The position numbers and the translations under genes are program-made. Shown here piece after piece: positions 1-6,192 of a DNA stretch of 35,397 bases (its first letter is position 1; each line of letters starts with the position of its first letter). Origin of the DNA: Gemmataceae bacterium (lineage in GTDB: Bacteria > Planctomycetota > Planctomycetia > Gemmatales > Gemmataceae). Location of the stretch: positions 1-35,397 of the forward strand of contig JANWYO010000197.1 of NCBI GenBank assembly GCA_025055215.1, in the 5' to 3' direction. The notes beneath the pieces are model-generated. The model saw only the letters and a list, made by a program, of their open reading frames with translations. It did not search any database and was not told the origin of the DNA.

Positions 1-960
1 AGTGTCAACACGCCATTGGTCACCGACAAGCTCACCTGCACCGGGTTGCTGCCAGCGTCGATGTCGCTGATGGAGATGGCATTCCCGCCGCTCGACGAGA
101 AGACGAGGTTCGTGTTCATCAGCGTCGTCTGGCTGCCCGGCACGGTGTTGACCGGTGCGTCGTTGACGGCCGTGACGGTGATCGTGACCGAGTCGGTATC
201 ACTGAGCGAACCACCCGAACCGCTATGGCCTTGGTCGTTGGTGGTGATGGTGAGCACCGCCGTGCCGTTGAAATTCGGGGTCGGCGTGTAGAACATTCCG
301 TTCAGGGCGTTGTTGATGTTGGCGATGGTGCCGGTGAAGGTCATGGTCGCGTCCGCCGTGCCATCACCGACCGAGAACGTCAGCCCCGTCGTGCCGCTCA
401 GTGTCAGCACACCATTGGTCACCGTCAGCGTCACCTGCACCGGGTTGCTGCCGGCGTCCACGTCGCTGATGGAGATGGCATTGCCGCCGCTGGAGGAGAA
501 GGTGCGGTTCGTGTCCTCGTTGGTCGTTTGTGCCCCCGGGACCGTGTTCACCGGCGGGTCGTTGACGGCCACCACCGTGATGGTGACGCTGTCGGTGTCG
601 CTCTTGGCGCCGCCTGTACCGGAGTGCCCGAGGTCATTGGTAGTGATCGTCAGGACGGCGGTACCGTTGAAATTCGGGGTCGGCGTGTAGAACATCCCGT
701 TCAGGGCGTTGTTGATGTTGGCGATGGTGCCGGTGAAGGTCATGGCGCTGGAGCCATTGCTGCCGCTGGTGAACGTCAGCCCCGTCGTGCCGCTGAGTGT
801 CAACACGCCGTTGGTCACCGACAACGTCACCTGCACCGGGTTGCTGCCGGCGTCGGGGTCGGAGATGGAGATGGCATTGCCGCCGCTGGAGGAGAAGGTG
901 CGGTTGGTGTCCTCGTTGGTGGTTTGTGGCCCCGGGACGGTGTTCACGGGGGCTTGGTTC
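1..960 (-). repeat. Tandem Ig/cadherin-like repeats 3-5 (about 396-399 bp units)
   Basis: Three in-frame units begin near 960, 563 and 164 on the minus strand; the last is cut by the window edge. The unit length is 132-133 codons: the stretch around 292-345 recurs at 691-744, exactly 399 bp away, with almost no nucleotide change. Each unit encodes PPVNTVPG...TNEDTNRTFSSSGGNAISISD...TFTGTIANINNALNGM. The near-identity at DNA level suggests recent duplication or ongoing homogenisation. Confidence 0.85.
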
Positions 961-3857
961 GCGCCACTACTGCCAGCAATCGGTGCAAAGGCAACCCCGC
1001 GGAACGACGTGTTCGGTGGGGCAGTCGCGAGGGTAGTGGCCGTGCCGCTGACGGCGCCGTTGTAACCGGTGGTGTCCACGAAGGTGTACAGCGTGCCACC
1101 GGCGGGATTGCTGCCGCCGGTGGTGGCGAAGAGGGTGACGGTATTGCCGGAGACAGACGCGGTCAAGCCGCGGGCGCCGGCGGCAGCGATATTCCCGTTC
1201 GACACCCAATTACCCCCGACCAGGGAGTACTTCTGGATTTCGCCACCATCGTCGGCGACGTACAGGGTATCGACGCCGCTGACCGTCGTTGTGAGGTCGG
1301 CGAAGAAGAAGCTGTACGGGCTGCCGGCGGTGGGAAAGCCGGGAAGATTGGTTAGCGATTGCCCGGAAGTCGTCGGCGTGCCGGTGCCAACGGTGGCGAC
1401 GCGGTATGTCGTGCCGGAAGCGGTGGAGATGTACAGCTGGCCGGCAAAGATATTCACCACCCGGATGTTCGTCAGGTCGGTGCTCAGCTGCGTGGAGGAG
1501 ATGCCGCCGAGGGTGGTGTGGCGGATGCCACCGGCGCCACCCACGAGCCAGATGTTGGTGCCGTCGTAAACCGCGGAGCGGATGTTGTTGCCACTGGCGG
1601 CGTCGTCGAGGACGGTCGTGGTGTTAATGACGGCATTGGCATCGACGATGCCGACGACGCGCTTGACCGCCGTGCTCGCCTGCCCTGAAGGGTTCGGGGT
1701 GCCGACGGCCGCATCGTAGCCGGTGATCGCCAGGAACTGTCCGTTGGGGGAGCGCGTCAGTTGACCTTCGGAGGTGGAATCGTCCTTGGCGGTCAGGCGG
1801 TTATTAGGGCCGGTGGTCACTGCCGGCACCGGGACCGACTGGACCAGGAGGCCGGTAACGGTGTACTCGTCGAGGAAGACGCGGGTGGCATTGCCGCTGG
1901 GGGTCGTGCTGCCGTCGCCCACGCGGTAGATGACCAGGTTGCCCGGGGTGAAGGGGTTGACGTTGACGACGGTGATCGCCACCGTGTCGGTATCGGTCTT
2001 GGGGCCACCCGAGCCGCTGTGTCCCTGATCGTTGGTGGTGATGGTGAGGGTGGCGGGACCGGAGTATCCCGACGTCGGCGCGAAGACCAGGCCGTTGAGG
2101 GCCGCATTGATGTTCGTCAGCGTGCCGGTGAAGGTCATCGTCGGATCGGCGGTGCCGTCGCCGCTGGAGAACGTCAGTCCACTGGTGCCGCTGAGCGTGA
2201 GCAGGCCGTTGGTGACGCTGAGGGTGACTTGCACCGGGTTGGTGCCCGCATCGGGATCCGAGATGGCCACGGCATTGCCGTTGGCGGTGGAGAACACCAG
2301 GGAGATGTTTTTGTTGGTCGACTGGGGCCCTGGGACGGTGTTCACCGGGGGCTGATTCGCGGTTGACGTCACGGTGATCGACACGGTGTCAATGTCGGAC
2401 TGGGGCGGCCCGCCTGTATGGCCCAGGTCATTGGTGTGGATGCTGAGTGTGTAGGTGCCGACCGGCGCCCCCATGGGCCGGAAGTACATGCCGTTCAGGG
2501 CGGCGTTGATGTTGGCGATGGTGCCGGTGAAGGTCATCGTGGGGTCGGCGGTGCCGTCGCCGACGCTGAACGTCAGACCACTCGTGGTGCTCAGGGTCAG
2601 GTGGCCAGTCGTTACCGTCAACGTCACCTGCACCGGGTTGCTGCCGGCGTCGGGGTCGCTGATGGAAATCTGGTTGGACCCGGAAAAGGTGAGTGTGCCG
2701 GTGTCCACGACCGTTTGCGGCCCCGGAACGGTGTTCACCGGAGGCTGATTCGCTGAAGCGACCGGCGCCCACGCCACACCCCGGAAAGCAATGTTCGCCC
2801 CGGCCGTGACAATCACGTTGGGGATGCCGGAGATCGTGCTGTTGTAACCGGAAGGGTCGGTCAGCTGGATCAGCTGCGTGCCGTTGGTGGCGTAGAGGGT
2901 CACGCTGGTACCACTAACGGTGCCGGTCAACCCGCGGACCGTCCCCACGCCGGACGACACCGAGCCGTTAGCGACCCAGTTACCGGACACGAGCGAGTAT
3001 TTCTGGATCGACCCCGGCGTATCGTCAGCGACGTACAGGGTATCGACGCCAGCCACGGAGGTGCTCAGATCAGCGAAGAAGAACGAGTAGGGGCTGCCGG
3101 TGGTCGGAAACCCTGGGAGGTTGGTGATCGTCTGGCCGGACGAGGTGGGCGTTCCCGTGCCCACAGTGCCGACGCGGACGGCGGATCCCGAAGCGGTGGA
3201 AATGTAGAGCTGGCTGTCGAAGATATGGACTTGACGAAGATTGGTCACGGTGGTGCTGAGTTGGGTCGAGGTGGTGGCGCCGAGGGTCGTATGACGGATA
3301 CCCCCCGCTCCTCCGGTGACCCAAATGTTGGTGCCGTCGTAAACGGCACTCCGCGGGTTGTTACCATCGGCGAAATCCGTCAGCGCCGTGGAGGTGTTGA
3401 CCACGCCAGCGGCATTGACGATCCCGACCGTGCGGTTCACAGTGGCCGCGGCCGTGCCGGAAAGGCTGCCACTCCCTCCGAGGTCGCGGGCGTAGCCCGT
3501 CAGGGCCAGGAACTGTCCGTTGGGGGAGCGGGTGAGCAAGCCCTCGGAAGTGGCCGTGCCGCTGGCGATCAGCTGCCGGTTGCTGCCCGAGACGGTGGTG
3601 GGCATCGCGATCGACTGCACCAGCACGCCCGTGACCGTATACTCGTCGAGAAAGACGGCGTTGCCGGTGTTGGTCAGGGTGGAGGTGCCGTCACCGACGC
3701 GGTAAATGACCAGATTGCCGGGGGTAAAAGGCGCCGGCAAAGTACGATCTTCGAGCAGTTCCAGCAGCGGAAGCCAGCGTCGCGACCTTGCGAGGCGCGG
3801 CTTCCGCCGTTGTTCGCGTGTTCGAATCCACCACTTCCGGATCGCTCGCCAAAACAT
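1..3857 (-). CDS. Giant secreted repeat protein with LExLEDR N-terminus, two propeller-like modules and cadherin/Ig-like repeats (3' end beyond window)
   Basis: The minus-strand frame is open from ATG at 3857 to the window edge (1285 codons, no stop), so only the N-terminal part is visible. The start has an AGGAGG 8 nt upstream. Residues 1-35 are very basic and end in LLELLEDRTLPAP, the LExLEDRxxP signature seen at the N-termini of many large planctomycete extracellular proteins. Residues about 36-365 form a beta-propeller-like module (FTPGNLVIYRVGDG, FLDEYTVTG, TSEGLLTRSPNGQFLALTGY, SAVYDGTNIW, DTLYVADD). Two Ig/cadherin-like repeats of about 132 residues follow (about 367-632; NQPPVNTVPGPQT, ISISDPDAGSNPVQVTL, MTFTGTIANINAALNG, LTITTNDQGHSG). 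The whole plan then recurs: a second propeller at about 634-962 and three more repeats, the last cut by the edge. The protein is probably cell-surface or exported and adhesive or structural. That role is inference; no catalytic motif was seen. Confidence 0.9.
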   Translation of the reverse strand, partial: MFWRAIRKWWIRTREQRRKPRLARSRRWLPLLELLEDRTLPAPFTPGNLVIYRVGDGTSTLTNTGNAVFLDEYTVTGVLVQSIAMPTTVSGSNRQLIASGTATSEGLLTRSPNGQFLALTGYARDLGGSGSLSGTAAATVNRTVGIVNAAGVVNTSTALTDFADGNNPRSAVYDGTNIWVTGGAGGIRHTTLGATTSTQLSTTVTNLRQVHIFDSQLYISTASGSAVRVGTVGTGTPTSSGQTITNLPGFPTTGSPYSFFFADLSTSVAGVDTLYVADDTPGSIQKYSLVSGNWVANGSVSSGVGTVRGLTGTVSGTSVTLYATNGTQLIQLTDPSGYNSTISGIPNVIVTAGANIAFRGVAWAPVASANQPPVNTVPGPQTVVDTGTLTFSGSNQISISDPDAGSNPVQVTLTVTTGHLTLSTTSGLTFSVGDGTADPTMTFTGTIANINAALNGMYFRPMGAPVGTYTLSIHTNDLGHTGGPPQSDIDTVSITVTSTANQPPVNTVPGPQSTNKNISLVFSTANGNAVAISDPDAGTNPVQVTLSVTNGLLTLSGTSGLTFSSGDGTADPTMTFTGTLTNINAALNGLVFAPTSGYSGPATLTITTNDQGHSGSGGPKTDTDTVAITVVNVNPFTPGNLVIYRVGDGSTTPSGNATRVFLDEYTVTGLLVQSVPVPAVTTGPNNRLTAKDDSTSEGQLTRSPNGQFLAITGYDAAVGTPNPSGQASTAVKRVVGIVDANAVINTTTVLDDAASGNNIRSAVYDGTNIWLVGGAGGIRHTTLGGISSTQLSTDLTNIRVVNIFAGQLYISTASGTTYRVATVGTGTPTTSGQSLTNLPGFPTAGSPYSFFFADLTTTVSGVDTLYVADDGGEIQKYSLVGGNWVSNGNIAAAGARGLTASVSGNTVTLFATTGGSNPAGGTLYTFVDTTGYNGAVSGTATTLATAPPNTSFRGVAFAPIAGSSGANQAPVNTVPGPQTTNEDTNRTFSSSGGNAISISDPDAGSNPVQVTLSVTNGVLTLSGTTGLTFTSGSNGSSAMTFTGTIANINNALNGMFYTPTPNFNGTAVLTITTNDLGHSGTGGAKSDTDSVTITVVAVNDPPVNTVPGAQTTNEDTNRTFSSSGGNAISISDVDAGSNPVQVTLTVTNGVLTLSGTTGLTFSVGDGTADATMTFTGTIANINNALNGMFYTPTPNFNGTAVLTITTNDQGHSGSGGSLSDTDSVTITVTAVNDAPVNTVPGSQTTLMNTNLVFSSSGGNAISISDIDAGSNPVQVSLSVTNGVLT
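963..3750 (-). repeat. Duplicated propeller-like module (about 3750-2757 and 1957-963)
   Basis: Both segments encode the same series of blocks: FTPGNLVIYRVGDG, VFLDEYTVTG.LVQS, TSEG.LTRSPNGQFLA.TGY, RSAVYDGTNIW, GGAGGIRHTTLG, STQLST, G.PYSFFFADL, VDTLYVADD, IQKYSLV.GNWV and FRGVA.AP. Each copy is about 330 residues. Kelch- or NHL-like propeller folds are my reading of the beta-rich repeated blocks and are not proven. Confidence 0.75.
1960..2752 (-). repeat. Tandem Ig/cadherin-like repeats 1-2
   Basis: Two further copies of the same unit begin near 2752 and 2358 on the minus strand, each opening with the codons for NQPPVNTVPGPQ. They are more diverged from each other than the copies at 1-960 are. 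They lie between the two propeller-like modules, so the gene is a duplicated block of propeller plus Ig array. Confidence 0.8.
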
Positions 3858-3871: not shown

Positions 3872-4421
3872 GATGTCCAGCGACCCCCTGTCCCGAATTC
3901 GCTGGGCCTCAAAAACGTTCCCTTGACACCGATCCTTCCCCCTGGCTCGCACATGACCCGGTACCCCGGCGTTTCCTTGGCCCGAAAAGCAACCTCCTAT
4001 CCCGCGCGGTCTTCCTGGGATTCGGCCTGCCCAGCCAAGTTATGGGGGTGAAGCGTCAACCTTGTACGTATAAGGTCCGCCAGCAGCGAAACAACGAATG
4101 TCCCGGTAATTCACCGAAACCTAACGAATTCTTAATGAGCAGCCCTCCGTTCGCTCGATGCTTTGCGCCCGTTTGGAGGGCAATCGCTGGAGGTTCGAGA
4201 AGTCTAGCGCGCTCGAGTGTGGCTTGGCGGAGGGATTGATGAATTTGGCGTGACAGGGCGGAGAGTGTGCGGCGGCCGAGGGCGGGTAGGCCTGCGAGAC
4301 AGGCACAAGGCGGCGTGTAGCTGTGACAATCGATCCAATTTCCGCCGGTGTGCATTTGCATTCCGGGAATTTCTGACCTAGGCTAGCAACGAGGCAGCTG
4401 TCAGCTTTGGTGGCAGTTGCT
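3872..4421. other. Spacer upstream of the giant gene, no supported gene
   Basis: Short open frames occur on both strands (for example 4056-4361 and 4121-4441 on the minus strand). They lack a good ribosome binding site and their predicted proteins have no recognisable features. The segment must hold the promoter of the minus-strand giant gene and probably that of the plus-strand riboswitch transcript, but I find no convincing -35/-10 pair. Confidence 0.5.
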
Positions 4422-4668
4422 GGGGCAGGCCTCGTGTCCAAGCCCGGACCACAACGCCTTGCATCCTCGAAAGGGCTAACCCGCTCGAAAGACGGGCTCG
4501 CAAAGCCATGGGCCTTCGGTCACAGGGCCGATGGTCGCCAGGCTGCCGAAGGGATGGGCAGGCGAAGAGCCCGTCCGTCCCCGGGTGCCCAGTACCCTCT
4601 CCGCGTGCCGCTGGGCGCTCGCTCCCGGTTCGGGGACCGGCTTTGCCGGTTACATGAGGTCCTGCCCC
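4422..4668 (+). other. Long-range 12-bp helix (candidate antiterminator) enclosing the riboswitch
   Basis: GGGGCAGG at 4422-4429 is complementary to CCTGCCCC at 4661-4668, and the adjoining CCTC (4430-4433) to GAGG (4656-4659), with a single bulged T at 4660. This helix would use the CCCC that the terminator needs for its 3' arm, so the two folds exclude each other. It brackets the whole aptamer, as expected of an antiterminator or of a large closing stem. Confidence 0.5.
4462..4556 (+). promoter_or_regulatory. Cyclic di-GMP-I (GEMM-I) riboswitch aptamer
   Basis: The + strand aligns by eye, element by element, with the known GEMM-I fold. P1 is CATCC..TCG (4462-4469) pairing with CGA..GGATG near 4547-4556. 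The conserved AGGGCTAACC is at 4472-4481. P2 is CCCG/CGGG, capped by a GAAA tetraloop at 4487-4490. The core GCAAAGCC is at 4499-4506 and contains the adenine expected to stack between the two guanines of the ligand. P3 follows (GGGCCT pairing with AGGGCC), then the 3' strand GGTCGCCAGGCTGCCGA, which matches the consensus GGUAGC..GGGUUACCGA. The family binds cyclic di-GMP and controls transcription or translation of the gene downstream, here presumably the repeat protein starting at 5002. A covariance-model score was not computed. Confidence 0.75.
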
Positions 4669-4679
4669 GCCGTTTTTTT
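4626..4679 (+). terminator. Intrinsic terminator forming the riboswitch expression platform
   Basis: The stem is CGG (4626-4628) and CGGGG (4631-4635) pairing with CCCCG (4665-4669) and CCG (4670-4672), with a two-base TT bulge. It encloses an inner hairpin, ACCGGC-TTT-GCCGGT (4636-4650). Seven T residues (4673-4679) follow immediately. The 3' arm overlaps the sequence that pairs with 4422-4433, so terminator and long-range helix compete. Confidence 0.65.
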
Positions 4680-4778: not shown

Positions 4779-4809
4779 CCGCCGCCCGCCCAGCATGGGC
4801 GGGCGGCGG
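4779..4809. repeat. Perfect 13-bp GC hairpin, 5-nt loop
   Basis: CCGCCGCCCGCCC (4779-4791) and GGGCGGGCGGCGG (4797-4809) are perfect inverse complements around AGCAT. There is no T-run on either side. It lies between the riboswitch terminator and the gene at 5002. It may be an RNA structural element or a pause site; similar palindromes recur at other gene borders in this window. Confidence 0.7.
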
Positions 4810-5001
4810 TTGCGCGTCGGCCAGCGAGCATGCTTCATCCTTCCGCGGCGCTGACGCAACCCCAACTGGGCGTCAAGGACACAACTTTTCCTCAAGTTCG
4901 GCTTTCCGATGGCCGATGATCTGATGAGGGGCGCTGCCGGCCGTTGGCCCATCTGAAGCCGGCGGCCATGTCCTGCTCTGCCCTGTCTAAGGATCGGTCG
5001 G

Positions 5002-6192
5002 ATGCGATGCCTTGTCGTCGTGGCGCTTGTCCTGGCGTGGGAAGTCACGGAAGCTGCGGGCCAATTCGGCCGACGGCGGCCCGAGGCCGCTGGCCGGCCG
5101 GGTCAACCGGCCCCGGCGTTGAGTGCAGCGGCTACCGGGAGCCAAAGCTCGTTATTTTCCGCGACCAAGCCTGAGGCGCTCATTCGTTTTGATCCTCTAT
5201 CGGTTGAGGTGCGCCGCTACGGGGATCGCTGGCAGCTGCGAGCGGGACAACAAGTGATCAAGGACTTCGGCACGGAAAGCGATGCCCGGCAGGCCCTGAA
5301 CCTGATTCGGACCCTTCGGTTGACGCACTACGGCGCCATCGGCTCGCCCCAGCCCGTGCTCGAATACTGGCTGGCGGACGGCAAGGTGCCGCCGCCGCTT
5401 CGGACCAGCAACCCGCCGCTGGAATTTGATCCCACCAGTCTTCGGCTGGAGCAGCTGCATGGGCAGTGGTTTGTGCGCGACGACCGTCAGCCGTTGTTCT
5501 GCTTCGGCGCCCACGCCGCCGAGGCCCGGCAGGCCCTCGAGGTTCTTCAGAAATACGGCTTCAACCAAGCGTACTACGTGGGGCAGCCGCTCCCCGCCTT
5601 GATGTACTTAAGCACCAGCCAGGAGAAGGCTCGTCCCGTGCCCGGACCGATGGCGTTCAGCGGCCTGGTGCAGAAATCGCCGGCCCTGACCGATCCGCGG
5701 GCAACGCTCCTGCAAGTGCAGTCGCGACAGCTGAGCATGCCACCCCTGACACCGGAAAGCGGCCCCGCCGCCGGAACGCGCTCGGCGTTGACCTGGCAGC
5801 TGGTGCTGGGCACCAATTGCCTGGCCGACTTCGGCCCACACGAACGCGAGGCCCGCGCCGCCTTGTGGACCTTGCAAAACCCCCGCTTCGTGGCAGTGCC
5901 GGCTCTAGGGCGGCCGGCTCGGGCCGCGAGCTGTTTTCTTGTCAACAACCAGCACGTTGCCCCGGGTCAGGCGAACGTCGTGCGACGCCGTTTCCGCCCG
6001 GAGTCGCTTTCCGTGGGGCAACGGGACGGGCACCACGTTCTCGTGGAGAATGATCGGGTTGTCCTCGACCTCGGAAGCGACGCCGAGCACGCCCGCCAAG
6101 TGCTTCAACTCATCCAGCGATTCGGCTTGAATCAGCTGACGCAGGTGGGAACCAACGCCGACGTCTTCTATATCCTGGGACGCGAGCGCTGA
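5002..6192 (+). CDS. Exported protein with four internal repeats, function unknown
   Basis: 396 residues. ATG at 5002 follows AAGGA by about 8 nt and gives a short hydrophobic leader (MRCLVVVALVLAWEVTEAAG), so the protein is probably exported. The rest is four related repeats of about 63 residues at about 62-124, 141-203, 237-315 (degenerate) and 331-392. The shared pattern is FDPxSL, a Trp or His near position 15, DFG/DLG, then EARQALxLIQ+FGxNQ, VGxP and a closing YxL. No catalytic residues or known domain are recognised. Linkers are Pro/Ala-rich. The gene is the first on the + strand after the c-di-GMP riboswitch, so its expression may follow the motile/sessile signal; this is inference. 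It converges with ackA, with only 5 bp between the stop codons. Confidence 0.85.
   Translation: MRCLVVVALVLAWEVTEAAGQFGRRRPEAAGRPGQPAPALSAAATGSQSSLFSATKPEALIRFDPLSVEVRRYGDRWQLRAGQQVIKDFGTESDARQALNLIRTLRLTHYGAIGSPQPVLEYWLADGKVPPPLRTSNPPLEFDPTSLRLEQLHGQWFVRDDRQPLFCFGAHAAEARQALEVLQKYGFNQAYYVGQPLPALMYLSTSQEKARPVPGPMAFSGLVQKSPALTDPRATLLQVQSRQLSMPPLTPESGPAAGTRSALTWQLVLGTNCLADFGPHEREARAALWTLQNPRFVAVPALGRPARAASCFLVNNQHVAPGQANVVRRRFRPESLSVGQRDGHHVLVENDRVVLDLGSDAEHARQVLQLIQRFGLNQLTQVGTNADVFYILGRER

Follow-up and report, generated by a model that had tools for sequence, protein, structure and literature searches.

Background

To our knowledge, nearly all known riboswitch aptamers lie within the leaders of mRNAs. 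A noncoding RNA of 445 nt, merRNA, has been described in Bdellovibrio bacteriovorus and was found to contain a c-di-GMP riboswitch without a conserved downstream ORF (PMC3627812). The merRNA was massively expressed, was proposed as a c-di-GMP reservoir and was reported not to be conserved outside Bdellovibrio (PMC3627812). A survey of riboswitches found the tendency to act in antisense to be strongest for c-di-GMP riboswitches (PMC9943018).

The window analysed here, which is the whole stretch of 35,397 nucleotides from a Gemmataceae bacterium, was found to contain a c-di-GMP-I aptamer on the + strand. With a probability of roughly 70%, the aptamer belongs to a discrete standalone c-di-GMP-sensing noncoding RNA of ~290 nt (~4388-4679, +) that contains an internal ligand switch. 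An earlier note on this DNA had read the same region as a terminator/antiterminator riboswitch and had considered c-di-GMP riboswitches to be little discussed for planctomycetes. The latter remark agrees with the open-access literature (subscription journals being mostly outside), in which no paper on the subject was found. The family RF01051 is nevertheless common in these bacteria: 40 of the 59 relatives and 57 of the 95 genomes of Gemmataceae were found to be positive. The genomes were mostly metagenome-assembled; genes were called by the length and codon composition of their ORFs, and a subset was checked against Pfam.

The c-di-GMP-I aptamer

The RF01051 model was matched at 4464-4550 (+) over its full length (1-87 of 87) with 60.1 bits (E 1.6e-9) against a gathering score of 35 bits, which bears out the GEMM-I aptamer that had been placed at 4462-4556. 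RF01051 was the only Rfam family above threshold in the whole window, and no Rfam family was found for the remainder of the ~290-nt RNA, where SPRY4-IT1 and P17 gave weak matches far under threshold. The aptamer was found to contain the following features.

4464-4550, + strand: c-di-GMP-I (GEMM-I) aptamer, RF01051 at 60.1 bits, with CGCAAAG invariant in 44 relatives
4463-4469 paired with 4547-4549 and 4552-4555, + strand: P1, helix of 7 bp closing the aptamer, in the aptamer flanks

The P1 helix was paired in 91.9% of cells in the relatives and was near-invariant, hence it carries no covariation information. The nucleotides G4475, A4503 and C4546/C4547, which we take to be the ligand contacts G20, A47 and C92 (Vc2 numbering), were present in the window copy and were invariant or nearly so among the 44 relatives. 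The GEMM-Ib aptamers, which sense 3′,3′-cGAMP, are presumably marked by an A that replaces G20; position 4475 was occupied by G, and not by A, in the window copy as well as in 43 of the 44 sequences. The window RNA was likewise placed outside c-di-GMP-I-GGC (RF03167), for which it scored 50.3 bits against a threshold of 59 and contained CGCAAAG instead of the CGCGAAG of the model, whereas some of its relatives scored above that threshold. Since CGCAAAG is invariant in the 44 relatives and neither the RF03167 nor the GEMM-Ib pocket is present, the window aptamer is by its sequence a canonical c-di-GMP-I member and is predicted to bind c-di-GMP. The joining segment at 4497-4498 was found to be CU in the window copy alone and GA or GG in 43 of the 44 relatives; the CU could alter the affinity of the window copy for c-di-GMP, or it could be an assembly error.

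The genome itself was found to contain three GGDEF proteins above threshold and a second c-di-GMP-I aptamer, L062 (G000:C282:73945-74041, - strand; 66.8 bits), and because of these c-di-GMP is presumably made and used in it. L062 is of the ordinary type, in which a GC-rich hairpin and then a long T run follow within 60 nt behind the aptamer, and this conventional terminator-type platform was found to be common to ~15 relatives (GGGATGGACGGGACCC type). A third aptamer type was found in relatives (L100, L104, L105, L107, L108, L113, L116, L123, L090, L076, L102 and L078), in which a start codon is present ~5-15 nt past the end of the aptamer and control is likely translational; its genes encode secreted-looking proteins and large proteins with a 'LEDR' motif. 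The aptamer of L051 precedes a Flp-pilin-like ORF. Upstream of the RNA, the window was found to contain a divergent gene (3-3857, - strand) for a giant protein with a LEDR N-terminus and cadherin-like repeats, and in relatives, c-di-GMP aptamers were found to precede proteins with a similar N-terminus.

Conserved architecture around the aptamer

In a subset of the RF01051 loci, the likeness to the window was found to extend well past the aptamer. An alignment was made of 23 relatives that share sequence and architecture with the window over this longer region, and RNAalifold gave a closed structure of 69 pairs, of which 50 showed compensatory changes. The features outside the aptamer, all on the + strand, were as follows.

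4388-4391, + strand: 5′ strand of P0 (AACG), pairing with CGUU at 4671-4674; MFE fold
4393-4421, + strand: H0, 5′ hairpin (4393-4403 with 4411-4421); covariation
4422-4433, + strand: U1, 5′ strand of the outer long-range helix; covariation and held-out loci
4443-4450, + strand: U2, 5′ strand of the inner long-range helix; covariation and held-out loci
4583-4620, + strand: PC, variable hairpin; RNAalifold and MFE
4627-4634, + strand: D2, 3′ strand of the inner long-range helix; covariation and held-out loci
4636-4651, + strand: PB, hairpin ACCGGC-UUU-GCCGGU; RNAalifold with compensatory changes
4656-4668, + strand: T3′, 3′ strand of the outer long-range helix; covariation and held-out loci

The H0 hairpin was paired in 93.7% of cells with a covariation of 0.861 vs 0.247 in shuffled alignments (reached by 0 of 500 shuffles). 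The outer helix contained 12 bp (4422-4429 with 4661-4668 and 4430-4433 with 4656-4659) with U4660 bulged, and was paired in 83.3% of cells with a covariation of 0.580 vs 0.301 in shuffles (0 of 500); both sides were changed in 11 of the 12 pairs, and the signal collapsed once the helix was slid. The 12-bp pairing between 4422-4433 and 4656-4668, which the earlier note had described as an alternative helix, is thus literally present and strongly covarying. The inner helix (4443-4450 with 4627-4634), which was absent from that note, was paired in 82.5% of cells with a covariation of 0.343 vs 0.179 (0 of 500). In 23 held-out loci outside the alignment both long-range helices were found to hold (0 of 10000 permutations each), and in the fold of the window RNA the U1 and U2 helices had a pairing probability of ~1. 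The outer helix encloses the aptamer without overlap and was predicted with or without P1.

The P0 pairing was examined in relatives through the pairing of their own 5′ and 3′ ends, as in AGACAT/ATGTCT of L050 and AGCAGCAA/TTGCTGCT of L044. A first, badly anchored comparison of the ends gave an unclear signal (311 of 5000 permutations), and once anchored on the alignment the own ends paired better than swapped partners (13 of 20000 permutations); on these two results P0 is the weakest helix of the scaffold.

The stem that had been proposed as a terminator behaved differently from the outer helix. An 8-bp stem can be drawn between 4626-4628 plus 4631-4635 and 4665-4672 with a 2-nt bulge, and the seven T nucleotides behind it are present. 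In relatives this stem was paired in 66.3% of cells vs 64.9% in shuffles, and its covariation was reached by 145 of 500 shuffles. When the window RNA was folded, the pairs of this stem had probabilities of 0.0, forcing it gave -136.1 vs -157.1 kcal/mol, which is a cost of 21 kcal/mol, and it was not among the calls of a terminator scan. The stem is most likely a chance pairing, so that of the claimed stem ending in T7 the T run stood and the helix did not. Since the long helix covaries, and the stem does not and has a probability of ~0, the long helix is read as a scaffold and not as an antiterminator.

Interior alternative hairpins

Inside the scaffold, two hairpins of the consensus structure were found to share nucleotides with the closed aptamer.

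4457-4474, + strand: P-alpha (4457-4462 with 4469-4474), hairpin alternative to the 5′ part of the aptamer; RNAalifold consensus
4551-4581, + strand: PA, hairpin; RNAalifold

The P-alpha hairpin was kept in 21-22 of the 23 sequences, hardly varying, and the outer pairs of PA were kept in 20-23 of the 23. The outer pairs of PA and P1 both need 4551-4555 and are mutually exclusive, and P1 and P-alpha share the bases 4463-4469. This arrangement fits two alternative interior states, P1 on one side and PA with P-alpha on the other. P1, PA and P-alpha were all kept in almost every aligned relative and hardly vary, so covariation cannot prove the interior switch.

Predicted promoter and ends of the RNA

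Directly before H0 the window was found to contain TTGCAT-N17-TAGGCT (4356-4384), and the T run marks the presumed 3′ end.

4356-4361, + strand: TTGCAT, predicted -35 element of a promoter dedicated to the RNA, from sequence, conserved in most of the 23 relatives
4379-4384, + strand: predicted -10 element TAGGCT, from sequence, conserved in most of the 23 relatives
4673-4679, + strand: run of seven T, presumed 3′ end, from sequence

The pattern TTGC-N17-TANNNT was found at a near-constant distance in most of the 23 relatives, and the summed consensus score of the promoter was 160 vs 50 ± 12 in shuffles, with a null maximum of 87. A scan with the sigma-70 consensus at a threshold of 9/12 called no promoter in the region; the predicted sigma-70-like promoter of the RNA is suggested by the conserved sequence, spacing and place of these elements, and would put the transcription start at ~4388-4392. 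The seven-T run that had been claimed was confirmed at 4673-4679. About two thirds of the 23 relatives were found to have a T run of at least 4 near the end of the RNA; in ~1/3 of relatives, among them most members of one large genus, the U-tract is absent or weak, so that the 3′ end at the T7 run is only presumed. Standalone structural RNAs typically have their 5′ and 3′ parts paired around a central domain.

Distribution and neighbouring genes

A covariance model of the RNA core (R1) was built from 44 training sequences. In the search with R1, 52 loci from 51 of the order's 102 genomes scored 100-154 bits, and the next match scored 88.6 bits; most of the matches are members of the training set, and the informative part is the gap in score. 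Only one genome was found to contain two R1 loci of at least 100 bits, and in the 298 genomes covered from the class none outside the order reached this score. When 84,980 species were scanned for the exact sequence, 33 records were hit, all with planctomycete titles except one ('Bacterium isolate'). The RNA was also found in Gemmata sp. IIL30, the assembly of which is not marked as metagenomic.

No common identity was found among the genes downstream of the RNA loci. At nine loci the downstream gene was convergent, with Pfam support.

L044: convergent, DAHP synthase (Pfam)
L074: convergent, glycosyltransferase 9 (Pfam)
L085: convergent, DUF1501 (Pfam)
L092 and L161: convergent, Pyr_redox, pyridine nucleotide oxidoreductase (Pfam)
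L112: convergent, Metal_resist (Pfam)
L117: convergent, UPRTase (Pfam)
L169: convergent, TerC (Pfam)
L170: convergent, HEAT (Pfam)

The co-directional neighbours were found to include metallo-beta-lactamase, AP endonuclease-like, CNNM, Tle1-like, acid phosphatase, GDSL and GXGXG proteins. A conserved same-strand gene directly downstream, as expected of a cis riboswitch, was not found across the RNA loci. In the window the next gene is P0001, the repeat protein that had been named as the target.

5002-6192, + strand: P0001, secreted-looking protein of 396 aa with internal repeats, not a conserved neighbour of the RNA

P0001 had no match in Pfam, NCBIfam or PDB, and it stands alone, since the acetate kinase gene behind it is convergent. 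The P0001 family was found in 49 of the 95 Gemmataceae genomes, one per genome. Only G000, G034, G014, G006 and G008, which belong to five genera, were found to have a member directly behind the RNA, and the adjoining proteins share 24-31% identity with the P0001 of the window. In G022, G027, G035, G063, G068 and G062 the family gene lies 0.3 to ~10 kb from the RNA, and in the remaining genomes it is unlinked to the RNA or on another contig. Fourteen genomes that are at least 90% complete contain the RNA and no P0001-family gene. The linkage of the two is beyond chance and is probably ancestral, the RNA being kept without P0001 elsewhere. As a general target P0001 was rejected, because the 51 genomes with the RNA have varied downstream genes, many of them convergent, and P0001 is directly downstream in five; it is retained as a rival explanation for the lineage of the window.

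Between the RNA and P0001, the window was found to contain CTCAAG-n-TTCCGAT (4891-4910), with a single occurrence in this genome, and a perfect 13-bp GC inverted repeat with a 5-nt loop and no T run after it (4779-4809). Essentially no upstream motif was found that the unlinked P0001 genes have in common with the RNA-linked ones.

Interpretation

The aptamer, the covarying scaffold, the conserved promoter, the single-copy distribution and the lack of a conserved downstream gene together argue for a standalone RNA. Transcription of such an RNA would start at a promoter of its own, and the pairing of its 5′ and 3′ parts would close it, with the aptamer at the centre and with P0, U1:T3′ and U2:D2 as the constant scaffold. 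The binding of c-di-GMP would stabilise P1, which would take 4551-4555 from PA and 4463-4469 from P-alpha, so that the ligand would refold the interior, while the 3′ end and the scaffold would stay as they are. The segments so opened could serve for base pairing in trans, protein binding or ligand storage, and the RNA would work in trans or would hold c-di-GMP as a reservoir, as proposed for merRNA, rather than serve the adjoining gene as a leader. We infer both the internal switch and the trans function. We consider it probable, though with somewhat less assurance than the standalone nature of this RNA, that it represents an undescribed family of c-di-GMP-sensing noncoding RNAs that is single-copy, conserved across Gemmataceae, refolds internally and either has mRNAs or proteins as targets in trans or serves as a reservoir.

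The switch of the earlier note, in which the stem 4626-4635/4665-4672 would compete with the antiterminator 4422-4433/4656-4668 under control of the aptamer, draws on two pairings that can both be written, share 4665-4668 and are followed by the T7 run. The supposed competitor is, however, the conserved helix, which forms regardless of P1, and folding with and without P1 left the long-range helices undisturbed; with a stem that lies at the shuffle mean, has a probability of 0.0 and costs 21 kcal/mol, the terminator/antiterminator pair was rejected on covariation and energy, and we give this mechanism almost no credence. A riboswitch acting in cis on P0001 could instead use the conserved fold, with c-di-GMP deciding between a stop at 4673-4679 and read-through into 5002-6192. 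The same-strand P0001-family genes directly downstream in five genera agree with this, as do, for three of the five, the short distance from the T run to the gene, and the presence between RNA and gene of CTCAAG-n-CCGAT with variable spacing, found by pattern in three of the five and in a looser form by eye in the other two. Against it, ~46 other genomes keep the RNA without P0001 directly behind, nine loci having convergent genes instead, the scaffold does not overlap the aptamer, and the gap in the window is 322 nt long and contains the GC hairpin at 4779-4809; control of P0001 in cis is judged unlikely.

Read-through could also yield antisense transcripts against convergent neighbours, which has been proposed for many c-di-GMP riboswitches, a role that would suit the nine loci with Pfam-supported convergent genes and the leading antisense tendency of c-di-GMP riboswitches (PMC9943018). 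The convergent gene varies by genus without a common function, however, and the next gene in the window is co-directional, which makes an antisense role very improbable. The standalone c-di-GMP-sensing RNA is the reading that we prefer. If it is true, this would be the second free-standing RNA with a c-di-GMP aptamer after merRNA, conserved over a whole bacterial family, and the function of such RNAs would be directly testable, given the presence of the RNA in Gemmata sp. IIL30.

Comparison with known systems

The RNA was found to share with RF01051 the full-length match, the GAAA loop, the CGCAAAG joining segment, P1 and the ligand-contact bases. It differs from that family, which is filed as cis-regulatory, in that the aptamer sits inside a larger RNA closed by conserved outer helices, with a predicted promoter of its own and varied downstream genes. 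With the antisense-acting riboswitches (PMC9943018) it shares, at some loci, an aptamer beside convergent genes, whereas a common antisense target is lacking. By anatomy and context the closest likeness is to merRNA, as both are RNAs that contain a c-di-GMP aptamer and have no ORF conserved downstream, with a length of ~290 nt here vs 445 nt in merRNA. The RNA of Gemmataceae may thus be regarded, by analogy only, as a counterpart of merRNA.
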